35,875 nucleotides of DNA, taken from a virus. A program made the position numbers and the translations under genes. Positions 2,623 to 35,639 of this stretch are shown in pieces. Numbering within the stretch: the stretch's first letter is position 1; the number at the start of each line of letters is the position of its first letter. The stretch spans positions 1-35,875 of IMG/VR virus record IMGVR_UViG_3300031688_000057; one strand, given 5' to 3'. The notes beneath the pieces are model-generated. The model ran no database searches and had not been told where the DNA came from. It worked only from the letters and a program-made list of their open reading frames with translations.

Positions 2623-2866
2623 CTACTACATCGTTATAGATAAGATAAAGGAGGCTCCCAAAACGGTTGCTGGCCTAGAATTAACTGAAACACAGAACAC
2701 GGACATTAGGTATTTAAAAGCTGAGGTTATAAGCGCTGGTGATAAAGTTGATTATATAAAAGAAGGTAGTGTTGTTAGATATGACAAGCACGCAGGGCAT
2801 GGGATAGAATGGAATGACAAAATGTATCACGTCATTACTATAAATGATATAGTGCTAGTTGAATGA
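2609..2866 (+). CDS. groS: GroES-type co-chaperonin, TTG start
   Basis: The product is 85 residues, a little shorter than E. coli GroES (97). The start is TTG 2609, inside the last codons of groEL (14-base overlap); no in-frame ATG occurs early enough to keep the N-terminal strand. The sequence aligns well by eye with GroES: INYYIVIDKIKEA for RPLHDRVIVKRKE, the mobile loop APKTVAGLELTE for ETKSAGGIVLTG, then EVISAGDKVDYIKEGSVVRYDKHAG, and DKMYHVITINDIVLVE for the last strands. The IVL anchor of the mobile loop becomes LEL. It would cap the GroEL chamber. The gene order groEL-groES is the reverse of the bacterial operon. The following gene overlaps by ATGA, so translation of all three is probably coupled. 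Confidence 0.88.
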   Translation: MKAINYYIVIDKIKEAPKTVAGLELTETQNTDIRYLKAEVISAGDKVDYIKEGSVVRYDKHAGHGIEWNDKMYHVITINDIVLVE

Positions 2867-3303
2867 GACTAAGCGCGCAAGATCTAAGAAATAAGAATAT
2901 CTTTAAGTATTACAGGCTCGTTAGAAAATGGGCTTGTAAAACTTACGGATTAAAAGACGCAGATTTAGAGTTACTTATTTACTTAGATTGTAAAAAGCAT
3001 TTTATACGTAATGATTTTATTAATGGTGCATATACGTATTCCTGGGATAAAGCAAGATGGGAAAGATTGCGCAAAAACGAATGGATAACCATTTTTAGCA
3101 AAAGGAATAGAACTACGATGAAGTATAACACTTATACCACATCGTTTAAGTGTAAGCAACTTATAACAAGAATATATAGAATATTACTCGGCGAGGAAGA
3201 TTTACCTACGTCGACAAAGAGCACATTTTATAAAAATAAAACGTATACAGATAAAGTGTTTAACCATGCTATCGATAACATGATAAAAGATAGCGAACGA
3301 TAA
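2863..3303 (+). CDS. Small basic protein with winged-helix-like pattern, function unknown
   Basis: 146 residues, Lys/Arg/Tyr-rich. ATG 2863 overlaps the groES stop (ATGA), implying coupled translation. The N-terminal helices (DLRNKNIFKYYRLVRKWACK) are followed by LKDADLELLIYLDCKKHFIRNDF and SWDKARWERLRKNEWITIF. This sequence of helix, helix, recognition helix and beta wing resembles MarR-like winged helix-turn-helix folds. The later stretch YTTSFKCKQLITRIYRILLGEEDLP is a long helix. Similar proteins occur near terminase genes in uncultured marine phages, by my recollection, with no assigned role. A DNA-binding function (packaging recognition or regulation) is a plausible inference, not shown. 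It may alternatively be a terminase-small-subunit type protein. Confidence 0.7.
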   Translation: MRLSAQDLRNKNIFKYYRLVRKWACKTYGLKDADLELLIYLDCKKHFIRNDFINGAYTYSWDKARWERLRKNEWITIFSKRNRTTMKYNTYTTSFKCKQLITRIYRILLGEEDLPTSTKSTFYKNKTYTDKVFNHAIDNMIKDSER

Positions 3304-3313
3304 AAATAAGACT

Positions 3314-3739
3314 ATGGCATTTAAAATGACTCCAAAGTCCCCAACCTTAATGGCAACGGGCAAATTCGGATCACCGGCAAAAAACATGAACAAAGGGTAT
3401 GGTCCCGCAAAGACTTCTTCTCCAGCTAAGCAAAAATCAGGCAACAGCATGACAGCAGCGGAAAAGAAAGCAATGAATGATAGGTCTGTATTTGGACCTG
3501 ACGGCAAAAATGTTGCAAAGCCACCAAAAAGCAAATCTAAGTCAAAATACGATCTTGATACAACTGCCCCAAAAAAAGGAAATAAAAATGTTAAAGGGGA
3601 AAAGTACGGCAAGTCTCCTGCTAAAAAGAATGGTATGAAATACGATATCAAAGAAGCTAGCAATCAAAATCTTACTGCAAAGGCTAGAAAACATTTTGCT
3701 GAAAATGCTCAACACGATTCTAAGAAAGGGTCTAGATAG
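3314..3739 (+). CDS. Lys/Ser/Pro-rich low-complexity protein with three SPAK motifs
   Basis: 141 residues, strongly basic and probably disordered. It contains three copies of Ser-Pro-Ala-Lys (coding positions 3371-3382, 3419-3430 and 3614-3625), each embedded differently: GSPAKN, SSPAKQ and KSPAKK. The N-terminus MAFKMTPKSPTLMATGKFG is followed by KSGNSMTAAEKKA and a KSKSKSKYDLD tract. The three SPAK copies use different codons, so the motif is kept at protein level. There are no catalytic signatures. The gene sits in a compact run of similar SPAK genes and the next gene begins one base after its stop. Function is unknown. Possible roles include a packaged nucleic-acid-binding protein, an assembly factor, or a substrate of the neighbouring zincin; all are inference. 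Confidence 0.75.
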   Translation: MAFKMTPKSPTLMATGKFGSPAKNMNKGYGPAKTSSPAKQKSGNSMTAAEKKAMNDRSVFGPDGKNVAKPPKSKSKSKYDLDTTAPKKGNKNVKGEKYGKSPAKKNGMKYDIKEASNQNLTAKARKHFAENAQHDSKKGSR

Positions 3740-3740
3740 T

Positions 3741-4094
3741 ATGGCTTTTAAGCTAAAATCACATTCTGAAATATTTGGTTTGCACGACGCGACGTCGGAA
3801 TTTGGCACACCTGTTATTATAAAGGATGATTTAGAAGAGGGGGTACAAGCAGAAGCTAATAGAGATGGAACGATCTTTGTTAGCTCAGACACCCCTGAAA
3901 GTAAAGTGCAGGATGCCGTCGACCATGAGAAAGTTCATTTAGATCAAATGGCTTCCGGAAGGTTACAATACTCAGATGATTCTGTTACTTGGAAAAGGGA
4001 CACAAAGTCGCCTGCTAGGAAATACGATAGAGCCACGATGAACGAAGGGCACCCGGATTTTGAATGGGAAAACGAAGCATATAAACAATCATAA
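3741..4094 (+). CDS. Small HExxH zincin-like putative metalloprotease
   Basis: 117 residues from ATG 3741, one base after the preceding stop. The frame is open upstream to 3696, but the MAFK start matches the neighbouring gene's start and avoids overlap. The core motif is DHEKVHLDQM, with His62, Glu63 and His66 forming a zinc-binding HExxH helix. A downstream FEWENEAYKQ (about 107-116) supplies Glu110/Glu112 as a possible third, gluzincin-type ligand. The N-terminal half (TPVIIKDDLEEGVQAEA, GTIFVSSD) looks like the short beta strands that precede the active-site helix in minimal zincins. It also carries a variant motif SPARK at 90-94. Its place among SPAK proteins makes a processing or maturation protease an attractive guess. 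Activity and substrate are inferred. Confidence 0.72.
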   Translation: MAFKLKSHSEIFGLHDATSEFGTPVIIKDDLEEGVQAEANRDGTIFVSSDTPESKVQDAVDHEKVHLDQMASGRLQYSDDSVTWKRDTKSPARKYDRATMNEGHPDFEWENEAYKQS

Positions 4095-4096
4095 TT

Positions 4097-4588
4097 ATGG
4101 GATTAAATTTTAGAGGAGCAGCTAGCAGGTTTAAAGATAAAAATCAAAATAGCTTTCAAGATAAATCAGCGCCTGGCCCAAGAAGAGGTGTAGGTGGTGA
4201 TGAGCCGGGTAGTTTAGCTAGGGCTGAAAAACGATTTGGAAGAATATCTAGTCCTGCTAAAATAAAGAAAAACTTTTACGGGGGTGAAGCATATTTTCAA
4301 GATGGCTACAGTGGCGATCTGGCTAATAGCTTACCTATAACGCGTAGGTCAAGTTCTCCTTTAAAAATGAATGAGGCATTAGTGTCCGGGGCGGCAGATA
4401 CAGGAAAAAAATTCGTAGATGCTGGATCATCTTTTGCTGATGGATTTGCTCAATCAGTTAAAGAACCTAAAGCGGAAGATTTAGGAAAAGAAAATAAAAA
4501 AGACGACGACCCAACAGTTGTAGACCCCAGTGAAAAAAAGGACGATATAATAACCACCTCAGCTACGCCAGACGTAACAACAAGTTAA
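4097..4588 (+). CDS. SPAK-motif low-complexity protein, 163 aa
   Basis: Starts at ATG 4097, two bases after the preceding stop. The N-terminal half is basic (FRGAASRFKDKNQNSF, GPRRGVGGDEPG, RAEKRFGRI) and contains SSPAKIKKNF and the variant SSSPLKMNEAL. The middle is Gly/Ala-rich and possibly helical (AADTGKKFVDAGSSFADGF). The last 45 residues are Asp/Glu/Lys-rich and end in Thr/Ser. The AADTGKKFVDAGSSFADGFAQS stretch resembles the N-terminus of the internal virion protein at 24197 (GKAAKKFVDIGGAIGQGFSAA). That suggests a shared element, possibly a membrane- or virion-directed segment. No enzymatic motif is present and the function is unknown. It is probably co-expressed with the flanking SPAK genes. 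Confidence 0.72.
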   Translation: MGLNFRGAASRFKDKNQNSFQDKSAPGPRRGVGGDEPGSLARAEKRFGRISSPAKIKKNFYGGEAYFQDGYSGDLANSLPITRRSSSPLKMNEALVSGAADTGKKFVDAGSSFADGFAQSVKEPKAEDLGKENKKDDDPTVVDPSEKKDDIITTSATPDVTTS

Positions 4589-4600
4589 AAAAATATAAAT

Positions 4601-5533
4601 ATGAATAACAAACCAATTACAGCCCGTGTTAAAAGCGGTATGTTCAAAACAAAAGAGCCGCTACTAAATGTAGGACCGGCCGGAGTTGACGGAAACAACA
4701 AGACCCGCAGTATGCCTTCCCCGAGTAAGATGAAAGGGTATACAATGAAGTCTTCACCTTTTAAGCAAGCAAAGACCTCTGAACAGATTGTTAACGACGA
4801 AATGACAAATCAGGGTATAAAACTTGGGACAGAAACAACTACTATCGAACCAGGTAAGGAGGGTACACCGGATACCAAAATAAAAGGTAACTCAGGGTCA
4901 GACGCTTTTAAATCAGCTTTTGGTGACGCTAGAAAAAGCGAGGCAAAAACATTCGACTTTAATGGTAAAAGTTATAGCACAGAGTTAAGCGAGGACCCTG
5001 ACTTTGGTAAAGACAAGGTTGTAAAAGGAGACCCTGGGACAGAGGACAAAGCGGTGAAGAAAAAAACGGCTATTATTGAAAAAGTTGCACGCAAGGGTGA
5101 AGCCTCAACAGCTTACGGTACTCGCAATAACTTAAGGAAAGCTAAAGTAGCGGCTCGTAATGCGAAAAAATATCAAAGAAAAAAAGATAGAAACGATCGC
5201 AGAGAAGACCCGTCTCTTTCCGCAAAAGATCAAAGACGTGCTAGAAAAGACGCGGCAGCCGTATCGATAAAAGAAGTTGCAGATTCTGAAGTACGAAATT
5301 CACAAATTCAATCTAAGCAAGGCAAGAGCGGTATTGGGGCTAGCAAGGAAATAGTGCTGGACGATGTTAATGTACAACAAGGAGAAAAAACAGACACTCG
5401 ACAAAGAGAGTTGGGTAATAAAGCTCCTAAAAAAACAGGTTTATTTGATCAATTTAAAAGCCCTGCTGAAATGAAAAACAAAGGTTTCTTTAAAAAGAAA
5501 TCACCTATGAAAATGAATTACTTTAAAAAGTGA
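4601..5533 (+). CDS. SPAK-family low-complexity protein, 310 aa
   Basis: Starts at ATG 4601 after an A-rich leader. It carries five motif variants. Two are near the N-terminus (PSPSKMKGY, SSPFKQ). Two are at the extreme C-terminus (KSPAEMKNK, KSPMKMNYFKK). The N-terminal MNNKPITARVKSGMF resembles the start of the small protein at 34266 (MNLPITTRVAKARVG). The interior is hydrophilic. It has a Thr/Glu/Gly-rich segment, a FDFNGKSYSTELSEDP patch and a strongly basic Arg/Lys region (NLRKAKVAARNAKKYQRKKD, about 175-215) that could bind nucleic acid. There is no membrane segment or catalytic motif. The stop overlaps the next start as GTGA. Function is unknown; a virion or assembly component is likely from context. 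Confidence 0.75.
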   Translation: MNNKPITARVKSGMFKTKEPLLNVGPAGVDGNNKTRSMPSPSKMKGYTMKSSPFKQAKTSEQIVNDEMTNQGIKLGTETTTIEPGKEGTPDTKIKGNSGSDAFKSAFGDARKSEAKTFDFNGKSYSTELSEDPDFGKDKVVKGDPGTEDKAVKKKTAIIEKVARKGEASTAYGTRNNLRKAKVAARNAKKYQRKKDRNDRREDPSLSAKDQRRARKDAAAVSIKEVADSEVRNSQIQSKQGKSGIGASKEIVLDDVNVQQGEKTDTRQRELGNKAPKKTGLFDQFKSPAEMKNKGFFKKKSPMKMNYFKK

Positions 5534-6165: not shown

Positions 6166-6759
6166 ATGCAAAGCGTATTTAACTACCTTGTAACACCACA
6201 AGGGGGCAGAACAACAGGGCAGACTACAATTGAAGGACAAGAATTACTATTAAACACAGAATTACAAAACCACGAGTATTCAAACAGAGTGGGGGTTATA
6301 TTAAGTTTACCCTTAGCTGAAAAATACAAGGAGCTCCAAGAAGGAGACGAGGTTATATTACATCACAATGTATTCAGAAGATTCAGAGATGTAAGAGGTA
6401 AAGAAAAAAATAGTAAAAGCTATTTAACAGAAGAAACTTATTTGGCACAACCGGACCAAATATACGCATACAGAAGAGAAGGAGAATGGAGAGCTTTAGA
6501 AGGTTTTTGTTTTGTTTCGCCGGTTAAAGAGACTAAAATGTTCTCTATGGATTTTGAAAAGCCGCTAATAGGAGTAGTCAAATACTGCACTTGTGGATTA
6601 GAAGTAGATAATATAGTAGGATTCATACCTACGTCAGAATACGAATTTATTATAGAAGGGCAGAAGTTATACCGAGTACCCACCAATTCAATTACAATCA
6701 ATTATGGACACAAAGGAAACCAAGAGGAATATAATCCTAGCTGGGCACAAAGCAGTTGA
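6166..6759 (+). CDS. Beta-rich protein, possible tandem GroES-like fold
   Basis: 197 residues, starting immediately after the preceding stop. Two halves repeat the same logic. In about 42-125, RVGVILSLP, then LQEGDEVILHHNVFRRF, then QIYAYRREGEWRALEGFCFV. In about 135-185, IGVVKYCTCGLEVDNIVGFI, then EYEFIIEGQKLYRVPTNSITI. Each half has a 'GvV..v......l..GD.V.f', then '..L.rv....I' order, as in chaperonin-10 proteins, so I suspect a duplicated GroES-like barrel. Identity is too low to be sure without a structure model. The bona fide GroES gene is 3.3 kb upstream. The C-terminal EEYNPSWAQSS overlaps the next gene by 56 bases. If the fold is right it could be an alternative co-chaperonin lid; otherwise its function is unknown. 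Confidence 0.68.
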   Translation: MQSVFNYLVTPQGGRTTGQTTIEGQELLLNTELQNHEYSNRVGVILSLPLAEKYKELQEGDEVILHHNVFRRFRDVRGKEKNSKSYLTEETYLAQPDQIYAYRREGEWRALEGFCFVSPVKETKMFSMDFEKPLIGVVKYCTCGLEVDNIVGFIPTSEYEFIIEGQKLYRVPTNSITINYGHKGNQEEYNPSWAQSS

Positions 6760-24196: not shown

Positions 24197-25294
24197 ATGG
24201 CAAATAATCAATTAATACTAGGAGCGGGAAAAGCTGCAAAGAAATTCGTAGACATTGGAGGCGCAATAGGTCAGGGCTTTTCAGCAGCAAATCAATCTGC
24301 TAGGGGCTTTACTAGGCCTAAAACTGTTGCAAAAAACCAGGAGTATCAAAATAGAGTTAGCTCTTTAATGGGTAAAATGAAATCAGATATTGATTTTACT
24401 TCGTTTTCGCCTAGTGAAACAGCTTCCATGCGGACTTTCCTAGTCAATGAAAGACAAAAATATGCGGGGGCCGCTAAAACTTTAGCTAATATGACGGATA
24501 CAACTTCTCCAGAATACATGGGGCAAGTTGACATAATGAACGGTGTAAATAGCAGTTTTGTAAATTTAGCAGACCAGATTAAGACTTACAAGAAAAGCAA
24601 GGTAGAATTTGTTGACGGCATGATGAGTGGAGCGTATTCAGACGGCAATGAGGTTAGCAATACAAGACAAAACACATTGATGTATACAAATAAGGCTTTG
24701 TACGGATACAAAGATGAAGACGGTGACGGTATTGCAGATGACGGAACAAGTGCTTCTTTGACAATAATGGACGGAGGCGACATAGGTTTTAACATCGACG
24801 GAGAAGTAAAAGCTTATAATAAAAGCTCGATGCCCTTATTAAAAGATTACGAGTTAGGCGTTAAATTACTGAAAGACAACGAAGCAGTACGCAGGTCAGG
24901 CCAATTAGTTAATGAAGATGCCGAAAGAATGTATAGGCTACAATTAGAAAAATCTTTTTCCAATCAAGATTCGTTAAGATCTTTTATATATGATTTTGAA
25001 GATGAATTCCCTACAGAACAATTAGGAGCAGCATGGGAGGAAGGGACAATGACGGTTGATGAAATAAGAAAAAAAACTATAGAAAGATTGATTGAAAGTC
25101 GTAAGAAGGCTGGGCAAGATGGTTATAATGAAAAGAAAAGCAAGGATAATAGCCCAAGTAAAAGCAAGCCAAAAGAATTAGCTGGCATTATAGATGGGAC
25201 ATACTATATCAGAAGAAAAGACGGCTCTTTATTTCCTGTAGAAAATGAAGAAGAATATGATAAATGGGGTGATTGGTTTTATGCAAACACGTAA
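24197..25294 (+). CDS. Probable internal virion/ejection protein, 365 aa
   Basis: Starts at ATG 24197 after an AT-rich leader. The N-terminus LGAGKAAKKFVDIGGAIGQG is helical with small residues and resembles part of the SPAK protein at 4097. The middle is helical and polar (NQEYQNRVSSLMGKMKSDID). At 24713-24742 the sequence DEDGDGIADD (residues 173-182) matches the DxDxDG calcium-loop pattern of dockerin/thrombospondin-type loops. The C-terminal quarter is charged (KKTIERLIESRKKAGQDGYN) and has a SPSK variant motif, then GTYYIRRKDGSLFPVE. It lies between the glycine-zipper protein and the giant polyvalent protein, so a packaged, T7 gp15-like role is likely by context. Confidence 0.58.
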   Translation: MANNQLILGAGKAAKKFVDIGGAIGQGFSAANQSARGFTRPKTVAKNQEYQNRVSSLMGKMKSDIDFTSFSPSETASMRTFLVNERQKYAGAAKTLANMTDTTSPEYMGQVDIMNGVNSSFVNLADQIKTYKKSKVEFVDGMMSGAYSDGNEVSNTRQNTLMYTNKALYGYKDEDGDGIADDGTSASLTIMDGGDIGFNIDGEVKAYNKSSMPLLKDYELGVKLLKDNEAVRRSGQLVNEDAERMYRLQLEKSFSNQDSLRSFIYDFEDEFPTEQLGAAWEEGTMTVDEIRKKTIERLIESRKKAGQDGYNEKKSKDNSPSKSKPKELAGIIDGTYYIRRKDGSLFPVENEEEYDKWGDWFYANT

Positions 25295-25311: not shown

Positions 25312-28300
25312 ATGCCTAAATATAAAATAAATATAGACGGGAACTTTGTAATAAAGGAAGTCTCTGAAAAATTAGTACCGTATCTTATAAGAAAACACCC
25401 AGATGCGGTGCTTATTGAAGGAACACCCCCAACTGAAAATTTTCAGAACGGAGATGCGGAGACCGATGCGTCTGTAACTCCGGAGACAAACCAAGCATCA
25501 AATGGGGATTCCACCTCGGAAGATGGTTTTTCGGTGTCCAGACTAGATGAGGTAGAAATACAAACAGACGGTTTTGGAAATGCAATCACAGTAGAAGGTT
25601 GGGAGAAAGAGACTAGTGCGTATATTGCGGATAATCCGGATCTTTCTGCAGACGAGCTATCTGCCTGGATAAATAGACCTGGCGGCCCAACAGAATCTCA
25701 GTACACTTTTCAAGAAGAAAAAGAAATATACAAAGCTAATAAAGAAAAACCTAAGCTGACTGATCCGCAGTATAGTCCTAGTGATTTTATTGTAGATTTA
25801 TATGAAGACCCTACTTTCGATATAAACAAGCCCGCTTTATCAATTTACGACAATGAGCTTAAATTTTTAAAGAATAAACAAGAAAATTTCCCTACTATGT
25901 CTACAGAAGGGGCGGAAATACAAAAACAAATTGATCAGCTTGAATATAACAAGCAAAACGAGCTGGAGAAGACTAGAACTCTTGATTCTACGCAGAGAAA
26001 CAAATACAAGGCAAAAATAAATGACGCCGAAGCGTACTTTAACAGCGGTATTGCTAAATACGATGCTGGTGAAATTTCCACAGAAGAGTTCGAGGTATAC
26101 GCTGAGCGTTATGATACTATGCAGGGTGATGTGTTTGAAACTTCTTATGACAAAGAAAAATACCAAGAGCAAAACTTGTTGTTAAACGAAATAACCACGG
26201 CCCGAGCGAAAGACACATACAGTAGCTTTGGCAAAAATGACTTAGGTGATCAAACAAGAGAAGAAAAAAAAGTATTTGATCAACGGGTAGAGGACGAAAT
26301 AATAAACAATGTTTCAGGTAATAAAAAATTAAAGGGCAAGATCCTTGACGGTAATGCACAGCTTGCCGAAAAAGAAATGATTATTACAGGCGCTAAAAGT
26401 ATAGTGCTAAATAAATCCTATGATGACTACGTATCCGAATATAACAAAGCTGAAGATATAATATTTGCCGCAGATGAAGTTGCTAATATAACGCCTGAAG
26501 TAGCTAACGCTGCTCAAGGTATACTTTATAATGCTGCTATAAAAATACAAGACACTTCTGCTGAATTAGCTTACAATATTGGAGATCAGTCTTTCGCTAA
26601 TAATTTTCAAATGACTGATGACTTTGAAAAGTGGAGAGATCGCCATATTGACGGAGGCTATGTAGGTGATATTGGGGATGCCGTAGGTACTTTTATTCAA
26701 GGAGGGCAAAAGTTAATAGGTGACGCAACGGTTGGTACCTCTATATGGCTTAATAGAGTGGCTTGGGATGTTATAGATTCTGATTATTTCGAAGACAACT
26801 ACACCAGTTTAGATATGATTAGTGACACCTTTACCAACTATAACAATATTAATTATTTTGGCGTAAGCGATAAAGGAGGAAGCCTATCAAAAGACGGTAT
26901 AACTTTTAGATCCGGAACCAAGACCATTGCAAATATGTTACCCTTTACAATAGGTGTTGCGCTTGCCGCTCGCAAAGGAGACGTTAAGGGTCTTAGAAAC
27001 GCATACTCTATTATGCGCGGTATGGGAGCCAGCGCTAATACCATTAACAAAGTGAAAATGGGCGGTTTTGCTTTTAGAGCTACTGTTAACGACAATTACT
27101 TAGAAGGTAAGCAAATGGGCCTAAGCAATAGCCAATCACTAGCTTATTCAACAATGACCTCTTTTTCCACTGCATTAGTGCAGGGTATAATGCCTGACAG
27201 TAGATTTTTTAGCACAACAGTCGGCGCCTCTATAAAGAAAACTTTTATAGAAAACCTTAAGAAAGCCACGACTAAAGACGGTATAAAGGTTGTAACAAAA
27301 CAATTCATAGACAATCTTATAGGGGAAATAGGAGAGGAAGAAGCTGAATTGCTTTTAAATGATATAGCTAAGATAACAGTAGGGCTAAGTAATGAAACAA
27401 AGTTTTTTGATTTTGATACTCAATTTGAAACTATAGCGGGTACTGTACTTCTAGCAGGAAGCACCTCCGCAGTCATGGCACCTGCTCAGTTTAAAAACTA
27501 TAAAAATAAAATATACAACCAATATCGAACACAAGGTGCTGATGTAATAAAGACGCTCCAAGAAACTAAGAAGGTTGTAGAAAATAAATTAAAGAAGGCT
27601 AGAACCCAGCAAAGTAAAGAAGCGGCTCAAAGGCAACTAAACGAAATAAATTCTGCTATAGAATATGGTTCTGATATTATAAAAGCTATTAACGTAGCTC
27701 CTGATGTAATGAATGACGAGCAAATAGATTTACTAGTGGAAAAAAATCAATTGCTAGATAAGAAATCAAAAGCAGATCCACGTTATACCAAGGGCATCGA
27801 TGCAGAAATTGAGGCAATAAATGCTAAAATAGAAAACTCTCAGGTTACACAGCAGTCCGCAGTTATACAGCAAAAAACAGAAGCCGGGTCTAAAAAAATC
27901 GCTGAAGCTTTAGGTATTAAATTTGATAAAGGAAATACTTCGAAAGTTAAAGAAGCGGTTGAGCAGCAAAATGCTGATATAAATAAAAGAAACGAAGGTA
28001 AAAAGGAGGCTGATAAAGAAAAGTTAATAAATGTAGAAGAAGCTGTAAAGCAGAATGGGTTTATCATGCAGAACCCGGATGGAACACAAAGCATAGTAAT
28101 TAATGAAGATGTTGCAGGTACAAATAAAGCGGTAACCACAGCCCAGCACGAATTACTTCACGGGGTGTTACTCAAAACGATTACAGACAACCCAGGCGCT
28201 ATAGTGCAAATGAGTAATGCTCTTAAATCTGAAATTGACAAAATGATACCAACTGGTATTAGCTTTAACAATTCTTACATACAAGGCAGATTAGAGGCCT

Positions 28301-31300
28301 ACAAATCGGATCCTTCCAGTGTAGAAGCCGAAGAGCTGTTAACTATATTTTCAGAAGGTTTAACCCAGGGCTATATTGCTTTTGAAGAAAATGCTTTTAC
28401 TAAAATAGGTGATTTTATTCGTCAAGGTTTACAGAGAGCCGGAATGAAAGTTACATTTAATTCAGGTAAAGACGTTTTTAATTTTATAAAAGATTTTAAT
28501 AAAAGCGTAATAGACGACAAGGGGCTAGGCAAGGGATTAACCAAAGCAGCTACCGAAGGTGTTAAAATTGGCAAAAAATTAGGGGCAAGCAGCGCTTTTT
28601 TATACGATGCAAATTTTGAAGCAAATGTTCAAAGTGCTTATAATAATCCTAAATTAGACTTACCTAGAAAAGCCCTCGGCATTGCAATGGCTTATAGAGC
28701 CAGAGTCCAAGAGCTAATAAACAAATCTTCTAGCAATGTATTTGGATCAAGAGAAAAAACCAACGCAATTGAGTACGCTTTAATTGGCAGAGACAATCCT
28801 AACAGTGTATACAACACAGTTTTAAATTACGATAGTAATTCTAAAATGTCTTTGGACGAAACTATAGGAAGAACTATAGCGGGTATAGGAGAAAACGCAG
28901 CTTCAAAACCAGGATTTAAAGCCAGCCGTAAGTTTACGGAGGCTGAGGAAGATCGAATGGAAGCTATTGACCAAGAGATTGCGGAAATAGAGGATGATCT
29001 TAATAACAATTACATAGACCTTGACACTCACGACAGAAAAATAGCAAAGCTTGAGGAGGAATACGAAAACATCGAAAATCCACCTAAAGAAAAAGCAACG
29101 CCAAAGCCTAAGGCTAAACGTAAAGCTGGCTCAGATATTGATGCCCCACAAGCATCTAAAAAAGACGAGCAAAAATTAGGGGATGTTACTGCAAAGTCTA
29201 AAAAGAAGCTAGACGCTATAGGTAATAATCCAGATGGTTTTAATCCAAATGATGGAGCTATATACGAAGTTTTAGCAGGAATGATCCGCTCTAAAGTAAA
29301 AGCTTTCAAAACATCGGGTAACAATATAGTTAATCTTACAAATCTTCCAGGATTTGAAATGGATAACATGGTTAGTGAAACTATTACTAGCCTTATACCC
29401 TATATAAAGAAATTTGATCCCACTAAAAACGACTCTTTATTCGGCTATACAATGGCACAGCTAAGTAATAGAATGAGAGGTGCGTTAAAGACTGGTAGAG
29501 TGACTGAAAACACCTTTACGGAGGACGTAACAGCCGCTAAGAATATTACAGCAGAAGAAAGCCAAGCCCCTGTAAAAGAAAAACCTAAGTTTAGAAAGCT
29601 TACACAATCAGGAGTGGTGTCTACTGAGGTTGTTGATGCGATCCGTGCAAAATTAAAATCTACATTACGTACTTTAAAAACGCGTATGGATGCAGCTGTT
29701 TCCAATAATCGTACTATAACTCCGCTTATTGCTGAGATACAATATGAGATGGGCAAGCAAGCTGACATAGATCTTAAGAAAGCTATGGGTGGAAAAAAAG
29801 ATCTAAAGCTTAGAAAGTTTTTACTAAAAGGCAAAAAATCAATATTAGAAAATCTTACTACAACATTCTTAATGGGTAAAGATGGCAATGGTGGTTTTCC
29901 TCAAGCTATACAAAAGAAAATAGATGGTAAATTTGTATCGTATCCAGGGTGGGTTGGTAAAAAGATAGACAGAGAAACCACAGGCACAGATAATGCTGGT
30001 AGAACTTCTGGAGCAGAAATTGTTAGAAGGGTGCCAAATGTAAATAGAGTTGTTACAGATCAAGAGTTTTTATCTCAAATACTAGACGAAACAGGTAATC
30101 CAATAAGAGGTAGAAAAGAAGCATTAGCTAAAGCTATGGCGGAGGAAATTTCATTTGAAATATTTTCAGAAGATTTAGCAGATCCCGCTAGTGAAATAAG
30201 CGAAGCTTTTGAAAGCAATCAAGAACGTCAAGGGGCGATACTTGCTGAAAACTTTATACAGCAAATAGAAAAAGATGTAGACAGAGGTAATATTAAATTT
30301 TCTTTATCTTTTAAAAGTCCCCAATTTATAAACAGGCACAACATAGCTTTAGATATACTTGTAGATAAAGGAATGGATGCTTACAATGATTATGTAGACA
30401 GCATCGAAAATGTGGAGCTTAGAAATTTAGTGAGAAATTACTTTGATAACAATCTTTGGAGAGCAGGTAAATTTGCTGATTACAAAGCTAAAAACAAGGG
30501 GCTATCTTATGAGAAATTCATTAAAAAAGTCTTATCTGCTACAAATCAAAAAAATGTAAAAGTTAAGCTTATAGGAAATAAGAAAGGTATAGGAGGCGAT
30601 TTAATATTACAGATAGGCACAGAGGTTATACAAATAGAGCTAAAGCTTAATGATAATGCCCAAATGAGTAGCTTTACTGTTAGATACAGCGAGCAAAATA
30701 AAAAGAAAAACGTCGCTTCATTTACAAAGCCGGAAGTTTTAAAAGCCGAAGGTGGCCAAGCATTATACGATGCACTAAATAGCTCGAAATACAAGGAAAA
30801 AATAAAAGCATACCACAAAGCCGCTTTAGATTATGCAAAAAAGGAAGGATTCTTCGCGGAAATTAAAAACGGCAAGTTACGCGCCGAAGGAGATGTCTTT
30901 ACTTGGTTGGTTGCAAAAGGTGAATTGGCAAAATTAAATTTACAGGTAGCATCGAATGAAACTGTTATACAAGAGATGTATAATAATGAAGGCGTGTATT
31001 ATGTTGATTTTGGCAACAAGGGGCTGTTTTATATGGGCGAAGACATAAATGGCTTGGGTGTCCCTGAATTAAAAGCTGACGTAACCCTATATGCTAGGAT
31101 GACAAAGGGATCTAAAAACAAACAGGGCATATATACTGCTTCTATGAGGGTTTTTCCTATTATCAACAGCGAAATTAAAGAATCAACCACTTCTTTATCT
31201 GACGTAAAAGAAATAAAAAAGTTTATTCAATCTGCAGTAAATACTGAAAAAATAAACAAAGGTAATGTTGAAAATAAAGCAATAACAGAAGGCCTTAGAA

Positions 31301-34263
31301 ATTCAAAGCCAGCTAAAGGTATTAGCGTATTTGACTTTGACGACACACTGGCCCGCACGAAAAGTAATGTGCTATACGTTATGCCCGATGGTACAAAAGG
31401 TAAGCTTAATGCTGCTCAATTTGCTGCTCAGTCAGAAGCATTATTAGACCAAGGCACCGAGTTTGACTTCAGTGAATTTAGCAAAGTAATGAAGGGGGAG
31501 CTAGGGCCGCTGTTTAGCGAAGCCCAAAAGAAAGAAGGCAAGTATACTAATAAAGATATATTTGTTTTAACAGCAAGGCCTGCTAATTCAGCGGCTGCAA
31601 TACACGCGTTTTTAAAGTCGGAAGGCTTAAACATACCTATAGAGAATATAACTGGTTTAGGTAATGGATCCCCAAAAGCTAAGGCTGACTGGATGGTTGG
31701 TAAAATAGCGGAAGGATATAACGACTTTTACTTTGCTGACGATCACATGGGTAATGTTAAAGCTGTAGGTAAAGCTCTTAAGGGCGAAGGCGTTAAAGGA
31801 CAAACAGAATTATCTATAGTAGATTTTAAAAATCAACCTAAAGCCGTAAGAGATATACTTAACACGTTTGATGTTAAAGGCCCAACCCAAAGATCCAGAG
31901 TTAAATTTAGCAAGGGACTAAACAAAGGCTTAAACGATATGCTTGAAAGAGCCTCTGACATAAAGTCTAGAAAAAGATTAACTAGGGTTGAAGGTGAAAT
32001 ATTAGGCAAGAATAAAGGCAAATGGAAAATTTGGATGCCTTCGTCTCTTGAGGATTTTAGGGGTTTAACGGAATACACATTCGCTGGTAAAGGAAGACAA
32101 GGGGATGCAGATCAAAAGTTTTTTCAAGATGCTTTAGTCACTCCGTATTGGAGAGCAATAAACGAAATAGACGTAGTAAAGCAATCTCTTAAGAACGGAT
32201 TTGCGGCACTAAATAAACAATACAAGCCTGTACTAAAAAAGTTAGGTAAGAAAGTTCCGGGCATGGCTTACACCCATGATCAGGCGCTACGTGTGTACCT
32301 TTGGAATAAGGCGGGACATGAAATACCAGGTCTTACTAGAAAGCAAGAGAGAGAGCTTGTCAGGTACATTCAGGGCGATGCAGAGCTAATGGCTTATGCG
32401 AACGGCGCACTCCAGGTAGCTCAGAAAAAAGAATGGTCTAAACCATCTGAATATTGGGCCGTGCAAACTATATTATCTGATATTAATAACTTTACAGAAA
32501 AAACGGGTAGAAAAGAATACCTTAAGGAATTTATAGACAATGCTGATCTAATTTTTAGTGAAAATAACCTTAACAAAATAGAAGCAATCTACGGTAAATC
32601 CCACAGGGACGCTCTTGAAGACATATTGTACAGAATGAAAAACGGCGTAAACAGGGCCGCTAGCATGAAGTCTAATGAGCAGCGATGGAATAACTGGCTT
32701 AACAATTCCATTGGAGCCATAATGTTCTTTAACAGAAGATCCGCCCTATTGCAAACGTTGTCTACAGTTAACTTTGTAAACTGGAGTGATAATAATCCCA
32801 TGAAGGCCGCTGCCGCATTTGCTAATCAAAAACAATTCTGGACTGATTTTGCAATGATATTTAATTCACCTAAATTAAAGCAAAGAAGAGCGGGCCTAAA
32901 GACGGATGTAAATGCCGCTGAACTTGCTAGTGCTGTTACAGGCGCCACAGACAAAGCCACGGCTGCATTAAACTACTTACTTAAAATAGGATTTACGCCT
33001 ACTCAAATGGTAGATAGTTTTGCTATAGCTTCCGGAGGTGCTACCATGTATAGAAACCGGATTAAGACTTACTTAAATGAAAAAGGGGCAGATGGCGAAT
33101 CTAAGTACACGCAGAAGCAAGCCGAAGATAAAGCTTTCGCAGATTTTGTTAGAGTTTCAGATGAAACACAGCAATCAGGTGATCCGGCGTTAATATCTTC
33201 TGATCAGTCTAGTTCCTTGGGTAGAGTTGTATTAAACTTTATGAACACTCCTATACAACTTAATAGATCTATAAAAAAGTCTGCTCAAGACATATATAAC
33301 AGAAGAAGAATGCCTGGTCAAACACAGGCTCAAAGTGATTTTACAAACTTTAGCAAAATAATATATTACGGGACTATACAAAATGCTATTTTCTCTTCGC
33401 TCCAAGCTGCTATGTTTGCTCTTATACCAGGATTTAATGATGACGAAGAAGAAGAAGGTGACCCGACAATGGAGGAAAAGACAAACAAGAAACTTTTTAG
33501 CGTTATAAATTCAATGGTGGATACAACCCTTAAAGGAGGATTCGGTTTACCTGGAGCTGTTGTATCTATTTTAAAGAACTATATAATAGAGTACCAAAAG
33601 CAAGAAGACAGGGGATTTTTAGCAGACGACTCCAAAACGCTTATAGCTCTACTTAATATATCTCCAGCCGTAGGGTCTAAGGCTAGAAAGGTTGTAAACT
33701 TTTCTAAAGGCGAAAGATTTGACAAAGAAGTTATAGGTGAAAGAGGGTGGGATGTTACTATAGATGGTCGATTTAATTTAAGCCCACGGTGGTCCACAGC
33801 TGGTAACATTATAGAAGGGTTTACCAATATACCAATGGCTAGAGCAGCAGATGAAATTAATTCTATTACAGAAGCATTAGATTCTAGAAACACTGCATGG
33901 CAAAGAATAGCATTGGCATTAGGCTGGAAAACCTGGAATGTTGGAGCAAAGAATGAAGAAAATGATTTTCTAGAATTCGAAATTAAAACTGAGAATAAGG
34001 AGCGCAAGAAAGAAGAAAGAAAAGAAAAAAGAAAGAAAGAAAAGCTTCTTAAGGAAATGCAGGAGAAAGATAGAAGATCTAAAATGTCAAAAGACGACAG
34101 AGATTTAGAGGACTTTATTAAGAAAGAAAAAAGAAGAATAAAGTCTAGGAATACAAGAGCTAAAAATAAAAGGAAAAAAGATTCGATTGCTCAAGTAAAA
34201 TCAGATGCTTTAATAGCTAAAATAGAAAAAAAAAGAAAAGAAAAAGCTAATAAAAATAAATAA
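25312..34263 (+). CDS. Giant multidomain polyvalent/internal virion protein, 2983 aa
   Basis: One open frame of 8952 bases with no interruption. The N-terminus MPKYKINIDGNFVIKEVSEK looks like a short conserved head, then acidic linker and coiled coils. Hydrophobic stretches occur near residues 540-555 (TIANMLPFTIGVALAA) and 722-735. Signatures: HExxH at 946-950 (TAQHELLHGVLL), a zincin-type protease motif; a helical segment at about 1353-1392 (IPYIKKFDPTKNDSLFGYTM) like sigma-70 region 2; Asp1763...Glu1776-x-Lys1778 (GGDLILQIGTEVIQIELKLN), a PD-(D/E)xK nuclease pattern; and an HAD phosphatase, DFDDT 2008-2012, VLTARP 2085-2090, FADDHMGN about 2141. Residues 2205-2760 resemble the C-terminal part of large phage internal proteins, with a hydrophobic helix at 2684-2708. 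The last 90 residues are Lys/Arg-rich. Iyer and Aravind called such composites polyvalent proteins, injected to counter host defences and prime takeover. Confidence 0.8.
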   Translation: MPKYKINIDGNFVIKEVSEKLVPYLIRKHPDAVLIEGTPPTENFQNGDAETDASVTPETNQASNGDSTSEDGFSVSRLDEVEIQTDGFGNAITVEGWEKETSAYIADNPDLSADELSAWINRPGGPTESQYTFQEEKEIYKANKEKPKLTDPQYSPSDFIVDLYEDPTFDINKPALSIYDNELKFLKNKQENFPTMSTEGAEIQKQIDQLEYNKQNELEKTRTLDSTQRNKYKAKINDAEAYFNSGIAKYDAGEISTEEFEVYAERYDTMQGDVFETSYDKEKYQEQNLLLNEITTARAKDTYSSFGKNDLGDQTREEKKVFDQRVEDEIINNVSGNKKLKGKILDGNAQLAEKEMIITGAKSIVLNKSYDDYVSEYNKAEDIIFAADEVANITPEVANAAQGILYNAAIKIQDTSAELAYNIGDQSFANNFQMTDDFEKWRDRHIDGGYVGDIGDAVGTFIQGGQKLIGDATVGTSIWLNRVAWDVIDSDYFEDNYTSLDMISDTFTNYNNINYFGVSDKGGSLSKDGITFRSGTKTIANMLPFTIGVALAARKGDVKGLRNAYSIMRGMGASANTINKVKMGGFAFRATVNDNYLEGKQMGLSNSQSLAYSTMTSFSTALVQGIMPDSRFFSTTVGASIKKTFIENLKKATTKDGIKVVTKQFIDNLIGEIGEEEAELLLNDIAKITVGLSNETKFFDFDTQFETIAGTVLLAGSTSAVMAPAQFKNYKNKIYNQYRTQGADVIKTLQETKKVVENKLKKARTQQSKEAAQRQLNEINSAIEYGSDIIKAINVAPDVMNDEQIDLLVEKNQLLDKKSKADPRYTKGIDAEIEAINAKIENSQVTQQSAVIQQKTEAGSKKIAEALGIKFDKGNTSKVKEAVEQQNADINKRNEGKKEADKEKLINVEEAVKQNGFIMQNPDGTQSIVINEDVAGTNKAVTTAQHELLHGVLLKTITDNPGAIVQMSNALKSEIDKMIPTGISFNNSYIQGRLEAYKSDPSSVEAEELLTIFSEGLTQGYIAFEENAFTKIGDFIRQGLQRAGMKVTFNSGKDVFNFIKDFNKSVIDDKGLGKGLTKAATEGVKIGKKLGASSAFLYDANFEANVQSAYNNPKLDLPRKALGIAMAYRARVQELINKSSSNVFGSREKTNAIEYALIGRDNPNSVYNTVLNYDSNSKMSLDETIGRTIAGIGENAASKPGFKASRKFTEAEEDRMEAIDQEIAEIEDDLNNNYIDLDTHDRKIAKLEEEYENIENPPKEKATPKPKAKRKAGSDIDAPQASKKDEQKLGDVTAKSKKKLDAIGNNPDGFNPNDGAIYEVLAGMIRSKVKAFKTSGNNIVNLTNLPGFEMDNMVSETITSLIPYIKKFDPTKNDSLFGYTMAQLSNRMRGALKTGRVTENTFTEDVTAAKNITAEESQAPVKEKPKFRKLTQSGVVSTEVVDAIRAKLKSTLRTLKTRMDAAVSNNRTITPLIAEIQYEMGKQADIDLKKAMGGKKDLKLRKFLLKGKKSILENLTTTFLMGKDGNGGFPQAIQKKIDGKFVSYPGWVGKKIDRETTGTDNAGRTSGAEIVRRVPNVNRVVTDQEFLSQILDETGNPIRGRKEALAKAMAEEISFEIFSEDLADPASEISEAFESNQERQGAILAENFIQQIEKDVDRGNIKFSLSFKSPQFINRHNIALDILVDKGMDAYNDYVDSIENVELRNLVRNYFDNNLWRAGKFADYKAKNKGLSYEKFIKKVLSATNQKNVKVKLIGNKKGIGGDLILQIGTEVIQIELKLNDNAQMSSFTVRYSEQNKKKNVASFTKPEVLKAEGGQALYDALNSSKYKEKIKAYHKAALDYAKKEGFFAEIKNGKLRAEGDVFTWLVAKGELAKLNLQVASNETVIQEMYNNEGVYYVDFGNKGLFYMGEDINGLGVPELKADVTLYARMTKGSKNKQGIYTASMRVFPIINSEIKESTTSLSDVKEIKKFIQSAVNTEKINKGNVENKAITEGLRNSKPAKGISVFDFDDTLARTKSNVLYVMPDGTKGKLNAAQFAAQSEALLDQGTEFDFSEFSKVMKGELGPLFSEAQKKEGKYTNKDIFVLTARPANSAAAIHAFLKSEGLNIPIENITGLGNGSPKAKADWMVGKIAEGYNDFYFADDHMGNVKAVGKALKGEGVKGQTELSIVDFKNQPKAVRDILNTFDVKGPTQRSRVKFSKGLNKGLNDMLERASDIKSRKRLTRVEGEILGKNKGKWKIWMPSSLEDFRGLTEYTFAGKGRQGDADQKFFQDALVTPYWRAINEIDVVKQSLKNGFAALNKQYKPVLKKLGKKVPGMAYTHDQALRVYLWNKAGHEIPGLTRKQERELVRYIQGDAELMAYANGALQVAQKKEWSKPSEYWAVQTILSDINNFTEKTGRKEYLKEFIDNADLIFSENNLNKIEAIYGKSHRDALEDILYRMKNGVNRAASMKSNEQRWNNWLNNSIGAIMFFNRRSALLQTLSTVNFVNWSDNNPMKAAAAFANQKQFWTDFAMIFNSPKLKQRRAGLKTDVNAAELASAVTGATDKATAALNYLLKIGFTPTQMVDSFAIASGGATMYRNRIKTYLNEKGADGESKYTQKQAEDKAFADFVRVSDETQQSGDPALISSDQSSSLGRVVLNFMNTPIQLNRSIKKSAQDIYNRRRMPGQTQAQSDFTNFSKIIYYGTIQNAIFSSLQAAMFALIPGFNDDEEEEGDPTMEEKTNKKLFSVINSMVDTTLKGGFGLPGAVVSILKNYIIEYQKQEDRGFLADDSKTLIALLNISPAVGSKARKVVNFSKGERFDKEVIGERGWDVTIDGRFNLSPRWSTAGNIIEGFTNIPMARAADEINSITEALDSRNTAWQRIALALGWKTWNVGAKNEENDFLEFEIKTENKERKKEERKEKRKKEKLLKEMQEKDRRSKMSKDDRDLEDFIKKEKRRIKSRNTRAKNKRKKDSIAQVKSDALIAKIEKKRKEKANKNK

Positions 34264-35300: not shown

Positions 35301-35639
35301 ATGTATAACGGATTTAAAGGAATAGGACCTAACGGATTAGGCGGCGGTAAAACAGAATGCGGGGGCTCTCCTGCTAAGATTAAAGATGCAGCTTACGAAA
35401 AATCAAATCGTAAGATGAGATCTAAATATACCAAAGAGACTGGTAAAACATTAGGTAAAAGACATTTGTCAGGCACTAGCCCAAGAAGAGTTTCATTCGC
35501 ATGCAGATTTGCAGGTATGAAGGGGGCTATGAAAGATGATAAAGGTGAACCAACAAGAAAAGCAATGGCATTAAAAAAATGGGGATTCGGTAGTGTTGGT
35601 GCTGCGTCTAGTTTTTGTAGTAAAAATAAAAAATCATAA
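35301..35639 (+). CDS. Small basic SPAK protein, 112 aa
   Basis: Starts at ATG 35301 and ends at TAA 35637-35639. It begins MYNGFKGIGPNGLGGGKTEC and contains GGSPAKIKDAAYEKSNRK. A later conserved-looking block is LGKRHLSGTSPRRVSFACRF, AGMKGAMKDD, then ALKKWGFGSVGAASSFC. The SPRR...FACRFAGMKGAMK block resembles short uncharacterised phage domains built around 'SPRR..F..R..Gm' (a DUF of the DUF6321 type, by recollection, not verified). It is strongly basic with three spaced Cys. It ends before a 22-residue frame and the terminator, so it is the last clear gene of the cluster. Confidence 0.72.
   Translation: MYNGFKGIGPNGLGGGKTECGGSPAKIKDAAYEKSNRKMRSKYTKETGKTLGKRHLSGTSPRRVSFACRFAGMKGAMKDDKGEPTRKAMALKKWGFGSVGAASSFCSKNKKS

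Follow-up and report, generated by a model that had tools for sequence, protein, structure and literature searches.

The open reading frame at 3741–4094 of the window (the whole 35,875-nucleotide stretch of viral DNA analysed here) is a real gene under selective constraint, and one that is nearly constant in a large group of marine phages. Its 117-residue product is probably a zinc peptidase, judging from its sequence and predicted structure. More tentatively, we suggest a late peptidase associated with, and probably acting on, small basic phage proteins that bear its own N-terminal peptide; this fuller reading we regard as possible rather than probable.

A conserved putative metal site in a minimal protein

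The gene lies in an interval bordered by two conserved genes, shortly before the terminase gene. The features referred to below are as follows.

1024–2622: GroEL, shortly before the terminase gene
2609–2866: GroES, shortly before the terminase gene
2863–3303, + strand: conserved 146-aa gene, left border of the interval
3314–3739, + strand: basic protein of 141 aa, starting MAFKMTPKSPT, with three SPAK; directly upstream of the zincin
3741–4094, + strand: minimal gluzincin-like protein of 117 aa (the zincin); ATG start; AlphaFold2 pLDDT 82.6, pTM 0.71; dN/dS 0.02–0.10
3741–3755, + strand: N-terminal MAFKL peptide of the zincin, common to many unrelated basic phage proteins
3924–3938, + strand: HEKVH, residues 62–66 (His62, Glu63, His66), invariant in 59 relatives
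4008–4019, + strand: SPAR, residues 90–93, in a loop between strands 81–84 and 93–96; one large set of relatives only
4065–4079, + strand: WENEA, residues 109–113; Glu110 is the likely third zinc ligand; W109 and E110 in 177 of 177 distinct loci
4097–4588, + strand: SPAK/SPLK protein of 163 aa
4601–5533, + strand: basic SPSK/SPFK/SPMK protein of 310 aa
5947–6165, + strand: conserved 72-aa gene, right border of the interval
6166–6759: second GroES-like gene, shortly before the terminase gene
24197–25294: gene with SPSK, one of the 13 SPxK of the window

Comparison with six same-length relatives gave dN/dS values of 0.02–0.10, indicating strong purifying selection. Two HExxH motifs occur among the 29 window proteins (0.118 expected by chance), HEKVH in the zincin and HELLH in a 2983-aa protein, and 1.5% of shuffles of the zincin yield the motif. 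That HEKVH is not a chance occurrence follows from its conservation: the motif that the original prediction had picked out in this protein is kept as HExxH by 59 of 59 aligned relatives, and H62, E63, H66, W109 and E110 are invariant both in 23 and in 59 of them. Further invariant positions in the 59 are P24, N40, G43, Q69, L75, Y77, W84, R97, G103, E112, A113 and Y114. The downstream WENEA, suggested at the outset as a source of a third ligand, does supply a candidate: the ligand is likely to be Glu110 of the invariant WE, whereas Glu112 is present in 33 of 65 loci of a wider set. The 2983-aa protein (25312–34263), which has a DFDDTL stretch besides HELLH, had no Pfam match at E 0.01. Three relatives (L062 419–898, L065 and L068) are fusions of the zincin with SPLK or SPMK and a basic, Cys-containing module at the C-terminus (160–161 aa), and in L138 (249–1649) the zincin makes up the N-terminal part of a protein of 467 aa that also has a stretch rich in lysine.

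Across 177 distinct loci from all clades, Glu63, His66, Trp109 and Glu110 are present without exception; His62 is kept in 165 and replaced by Glu in 12 (EExxH). Loss of the HExxH residues in orthologues, named earlier as evidence that would count against a metalloprotease, is thus seen for His62 and for neither Glu63 nor His66. The EExxH loci (L304–L322, L324, L328, L340, L345 and L346) correspond to three inferred changes on a tree of 126 rows, with L328 outside the tree; by their sequence, they possibly have a changed metal or have lost activity. These changes, with the other four residues kept, are what one might expect of a structural or binding protein in which a metal site stabilises the fold and catalysis is dispensable. 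The Glu of HExxH, however, serves catalysis rather than zinc binding, and the invariance of Glu63 in all 177 loci, together with the retention of His62 in 165, makes this alternative improbable.

Predicted fold and family affiliation

A scan of viral contigs gave 300 relatives, of which 80 were kept, and a profile scan added more distant ones. In an AlphaFold2 model built with a 59-row alignment, the HExxH motif lies on helix 53–71 and Glu110 on helix 108–116. The top VIA match of the model was IrrE/PprI (Z 6.2, 3.1 Å over 82 residues, a moderate score). Among the matches listed, those with Z of at least 5.0 were IrrE/PprI (four), a mycobacterial transcriptional regulator (three) and a DPC-repair protease (one), which we take to be Spartan/SprT. 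Abylysin (4jiu) scored Z 4.0, and anthrax lethal factor and Certhrax, at Z 4.5 or less, are mere fold neighbours. Foldseek E-values against the PDB were all above 0.1; against viral models, nine hits had E below 0.001, three of them named SprT-like. The model thus agrees, with moderate confidence, with the zincin first proposed from the motif. Because all Z are below 8, we claim a zincin core for the protein and not membership of one family.

Sequence searches are consistent with such a distant affiliation. The window zincin had no Pfam match and two weak PHROG matches with no assigned function. Among 59 family members, 15 Pfam families were matched at E ≤0.1, and neither the ImmA/IrrE nor the SprT profile was one of them; DUF6782, a putative metallopeptidase family, was matched by 33 of the 59 (best E 1.7e-4), the window protein not included. 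The PHROG family phrog_87 ("metallo-protease") was matched by 17 of 59 members (best E 3e-6), again without the window protein, and phrog_10499 and phrog_16532, neither with an assigned function, by 54 and 53, respectively. MJ1213, presumably selecase, gave a weak sequence match (E 0.75). Searches of named phages with four family members found no close homologue: the window protein and one distant (clade-3) relative had no match, and two other relatives weakly matched Methylophilales, Caulobacter, Tenacibaculum, Synechococcus and other phages. Seven contigs in bacterial genome records matched the zincin, all of them MAGs. No paper recognised as dealing with this zincin or its N-terminal peptide was found in a literature search.

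IrrE has HExxH and a downstream Glu, as the zincin does, and IrrE/PprI and ImmA resemble it in core fold, but the solved IrrE/PprI chains, at 240–248 residues, are about twice its length. Closest by size are the minigluzincins (abylysin, jannalysin and selecase), of about 105–110 residues and with what may be the same core; these are archaeal, unlike the phage protein, and we know of no N-terminal tag on them. Wss1 and Spartan have been grouped with the minigluzincins (PMC4559962).

These affinities raise the possibility of a host-directed or DNA-repair zinc peptidase of ImmA/IrrE or SprT type, cutting a host repressor or a crosslinked protein, for which the place of the gene would be incidental. 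The ranking of the fold matches, with IrrE/PprI first and the DPC-repair protease close behind, favours it, as do a homologue in an Ochrobactrum phage annotated ImmA/IrrE and a distant relative in a Kyanoviridae phage, within 8 kb of which, on either side, the genes are mostly hypothetical and no head gene is annotated. We consider it a serious but rather unlikely alternative, in view of the constancy and place of the gene, of the N-terminal peptide that it has in common with other phage proteins, and of its tagged neighbours after relocation, all described below.

Constancy of the gene and two motifs shared with its neighbours

Locus sets chosen by the zincin favour its presence, so counts were also taken from anchors chosen independently of it (the 146-aa gene, TerL and tag DNA). 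The best 80 of 590 relatives of the adjoining 146-aa gene gave 65 loci with the whole interval from this gene to the 72-aa gene, and the zincin is present in 65 of 65. The partly zincin-chosen set comprises 179 distinct loci whose interval is complete, and 177 of these have the zincin there, ahead of TerL; each of eight records of 63–70 kb holds one copy. Both observations argue against an incidental, host-directed role. The two intervals without it (L196 and L225) belong to records of 40.6 and 41.1 kb in which it was not found elsewhere. In L547, L548 and L552, the nearest TerL relatives of L225 among those whose sequence extends far enough, the gene has moved upstream of GroEL; in L225 it is not found just before GroEL either. 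L196 and L225 may be true losses, or the zincin may lie in the unseen part of the record.

Relocation upstream of GroEL is seen in five loci (the three just named, L446 and L460). In L547 the moved zincin sits between MAFK-tagged basic genes, and in L548 it has them on one side, again at odds with a host-directed peptidase whose surroundings are incidental, and the holin of this sublineage stayed at the old place. The latter bears on a lysis protein working with an adjoining holin, suggested by the 38 of 52 loop-less loci (a form of the zincin described below) in which the next gene downstream is a holin (phrog_3427, E 5e-28). No holin was found in the window, however, and 69 of 125 loop-bearing loci, some of them on truncated contigs, likewise showed none within 5 kb; an M15 peptidase is encoded elsewhere in the window. 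We regard a lysis function as very unlikely.

The original prediction had placed the zincin between SPAK-bearing genes and noted its own SPAR, and this stands: the genes at 3314–3739, 4097–4588 and 4601–5533 all carry SPxK. The window has 13 SPxK against 2.2 expected, with a maximum of 7 in 500 shuffles. Two look incidental, that of the GroES-like protein at 6166–6759, about 2% of whose family has one, and that of the portal tail, found in 18% of portals, with TPPK or TPPQ elsewhere. A DUF6321 protein (35301–35639; E 2.8e-10) also carries SPAK. The basic block proteins (4601–5533 and similar ones) appear to have a second common end, with C-termini such as MKMNYFKK, LKKNYFNK and KNYKKGYYGK. A straightforward reading of SPAK as a DNA-binding SPKK-type motif was rejected: of about 58 weighted sites, 37.0 have Ala at the third position, where basic residues are very rare (R 0.1, K 0.0).

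Zincins occur in two forms, with an S/T-P-x-R/K loop (SPAR here) and loop-less. In complete intervals (L206 and L283 left out), the other genes hold 513 SPx[KR] against 43 expected at the 113 loci whose zincin has the loop and His62, 31 against 7.2 at the 50 loop-less loci (a weak excess) and 2 against 3.2 at the 12 loci with Glu at position 62 (no enrichment). The link between zincin and motif, initially put down to neighbourhood only, is therefore statistical across loci and extends beyond the local context. Genome-wide, seen and expected SPx[KR] were 9 and 3.4 (G001), 8 and 4.0 (G005), 11 and 4.0 (G003) and 11 and 3.7 (G006) in four records, and 3 and 4.1 (G002), 5 and 4.1 (G004), 3 and 4.2 (G007) and 3 and 3.6 (G008) in four others; in G003 and G006 most lie outside the zincin's interval. 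With the eight records so mixed, the motif is not strong genome-wide.

The zincin is equally constant where its block has little or no SPxK, and since these SPxK-poor relatives keep it, it does not depend on SPAK, nor is SPAK its general substrate. Its own SPAR is retained in lineages whose neighbours are without SPxK, and so is not simply one more tag. Of the processing enzyme for SPAK-tagged proteins that was originally envisaged, the enrichment near loop-bearing forms survives and the dependence does not; co-occurrence of zincin and SPxK genes, proposed as a comparative check, likewise shows an excess with the loop and a zincin that is also found where SPxK is scarce. In the His62→Glu lineages and some of their sisters, proteins that seem to be orthologous have S-[AVM]-x-K in place of the tag, and the zincin's SPAR stays. 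Strict covariation of His62 with the tag was rejected: L323, with intact His62, and L327 and L330 also have S-[AVM]-x-K. Independent pairs number three in all, two of them supported; SPxK and His62 change in the same direction in one or two of the two pairs and never in the opposite one (sign test p at least 0.5), too few pairs for covariation to count as proof.

The second motif is the N-terminal peptide. The zincin starts with M.FK[LMI] in 133 of 177 distinct loci, or 149 if Arg is allowed for Lys, and most of the others are near variants; M1, F3 and K4 do not vary among 13 rows spanning the clades, and the adjoining residues are hypervariable. The peptide falls outside the predicted fold (residues 1–7 are coil in the model, and residues 1–10 have a mean pLDDT of 66). 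This start is found in 22.5 weighted families against 2.0 expected, with six control patterns at 0.3–3.1; besides the zincin, it is carried by some two dozen families that are unrelated and mostly basic. When loci were selected mainly by the zincin, the figures are 3.7 and 0.27 (four families, zincin included). SPx[KR] is present in 16 of 24 N-tagged families, compared with 64 of all 433. Genes directly adjoining the zincin bear the N-tag in 7.3% (loop) and 8.3% (loop-less) of cases against 0.9% and 1.7% of other genes, that is, 5–8 times as often with kinship uncorrected. Neither tag is found on any direct neighbour at 45 of 126 loop-bearing and 51 of 87 loop-less loci.

A scan with the DNA of MAFKMKGF alone gave 80 loci among the matches listed, of which 64 contigs of at least 10 kb were used and 16 shorter ones left out. 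The group's TerL is present in 62 of these 64 contigs and the zincin in 52, again among the matches listed. Ten of the 12 without zincin have TerL 0.3–6.6 kb from the block-side contig end, and two have no TerL; the zincin may be truly absent from G032 (6.6 kb) and G035 (4.6 kb). Six named zincin-less phages with related portals showed no N-tag and no SPxK excess in the 42.5–50 kb read of each 61–79 kb genome. The records of L196 and L225 (G073 and G074) have 0 of 35 and 0 of 30 genes starting M.FK[LMI] over about 40 kb read, and no SPxK excess (2 against 2.2 expected and 3 against 2.4), which is weak evidence, given incomplete records and the small number of tags that a genome carries. In five of the eight 63–70 kb records, the zincin is the sole M.FK[LMI] protein found, so absence of the tag from zincin-less records says little. 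As the group is one clade, the co-distribution of zincin and tag may reflect shared descent, and the peptide could have another role, e.g., in translation.

A candidate peptidase of the assembling head

The original prediction had a capsid-maturation protease in mind, and its observation that the phage has no other evident one holds among the window proteins searched. The head-assembly neighbourhood also suits a head maturation protease cutting the capsid or a scaffold protein. However, capsid proteins from phages with and without the zincin align collinearly at their N-termini. Among 22 capsid proteins and the window's own, three of the 22 coming from zincin-less phages, no carrier-specific propeptide was seen, the start of the major capsid protein being at much the same position in both. 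Moreover, the portal of a relative is named P22-like, and P22 needs no maturation protease. Capsid-shell maturation by the zincin is thus unlikely on sequence grounds, and a maturation protease of this kind is, in our judgement, the least probable of the readings considered.

The T4 head protease gp21 is not a zincin, and the T4 system offers a parallel of another kind. In a published account of T4, basic internal proteins are directed to the head by some ten residues at the N-terminus, and the head protease cuts there; such sequences are also borne by further basic proteins, which substitute for one another from strain to strain (PMC9026906). Like M-x-F-K-[LM], the T4 capsid targeting sequences are short peptides at the N-termini of basic proteins unrelated to each other (PMC9026906); the two peptides would be analogous though unrelated. 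Cargo proteins have been described in the head and tail of the crAss001 virion, in a paper whose main text lacks the terms proteol, cleav and protease (PMC10172136). A weak match to the crAss muzzle was seen in the window phage (E 3.7e-6, just under the cut-off), whose portal is 34% identical to that of Cellulophaga phi38:1, a kinship that makes cargo storage plausible. Judged by the affinities of the portal, marine Flavobacteriia are likely to be the hosts of the group.

Given the T4 parallel and this kinship, we favour, tentatively, a peptidase that travels with tagged basic proteins and trims them. The zincin would be a small late-gene zinc peptidase of IrrE, SprT or minigluzincin type, its zinc held by His62, His66 and Glu110 and its water activated by Glu63. 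Since its N-terminal peptide is also that of the small basic proteins, it is probably brought where they go, the likeliest destination being the assembling head, and would there trim some of them. Late expression, zinc binding, catalysis, packaging and substrates are all things that we infer for this protein, and the tagged proteins as substrates are the weak step. A more specific version, drawn by analogy and in our view doubtful as a whole, would have M-x-F-K-[LM] as a head-targeting peptide by which the zincin and a varying set of small basic proteins reach the prohead; there the zincin would trim them, perhaps at or near S-P-x-K, to basic peptides that would aid in condensing the DNA or be injected along with it.

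If true, this would to our knowledge be the first zincin-type processing system inside the head of a tailed phage. An almost constant, unannotated gene of a widespread group of marine phages, whose portal is related to those of Cellulophaga and Flavobacterium phages, gains a biochemically testable role, and a group-specific N-terminal peptide found on many unknown proteins gains a testable meaning.
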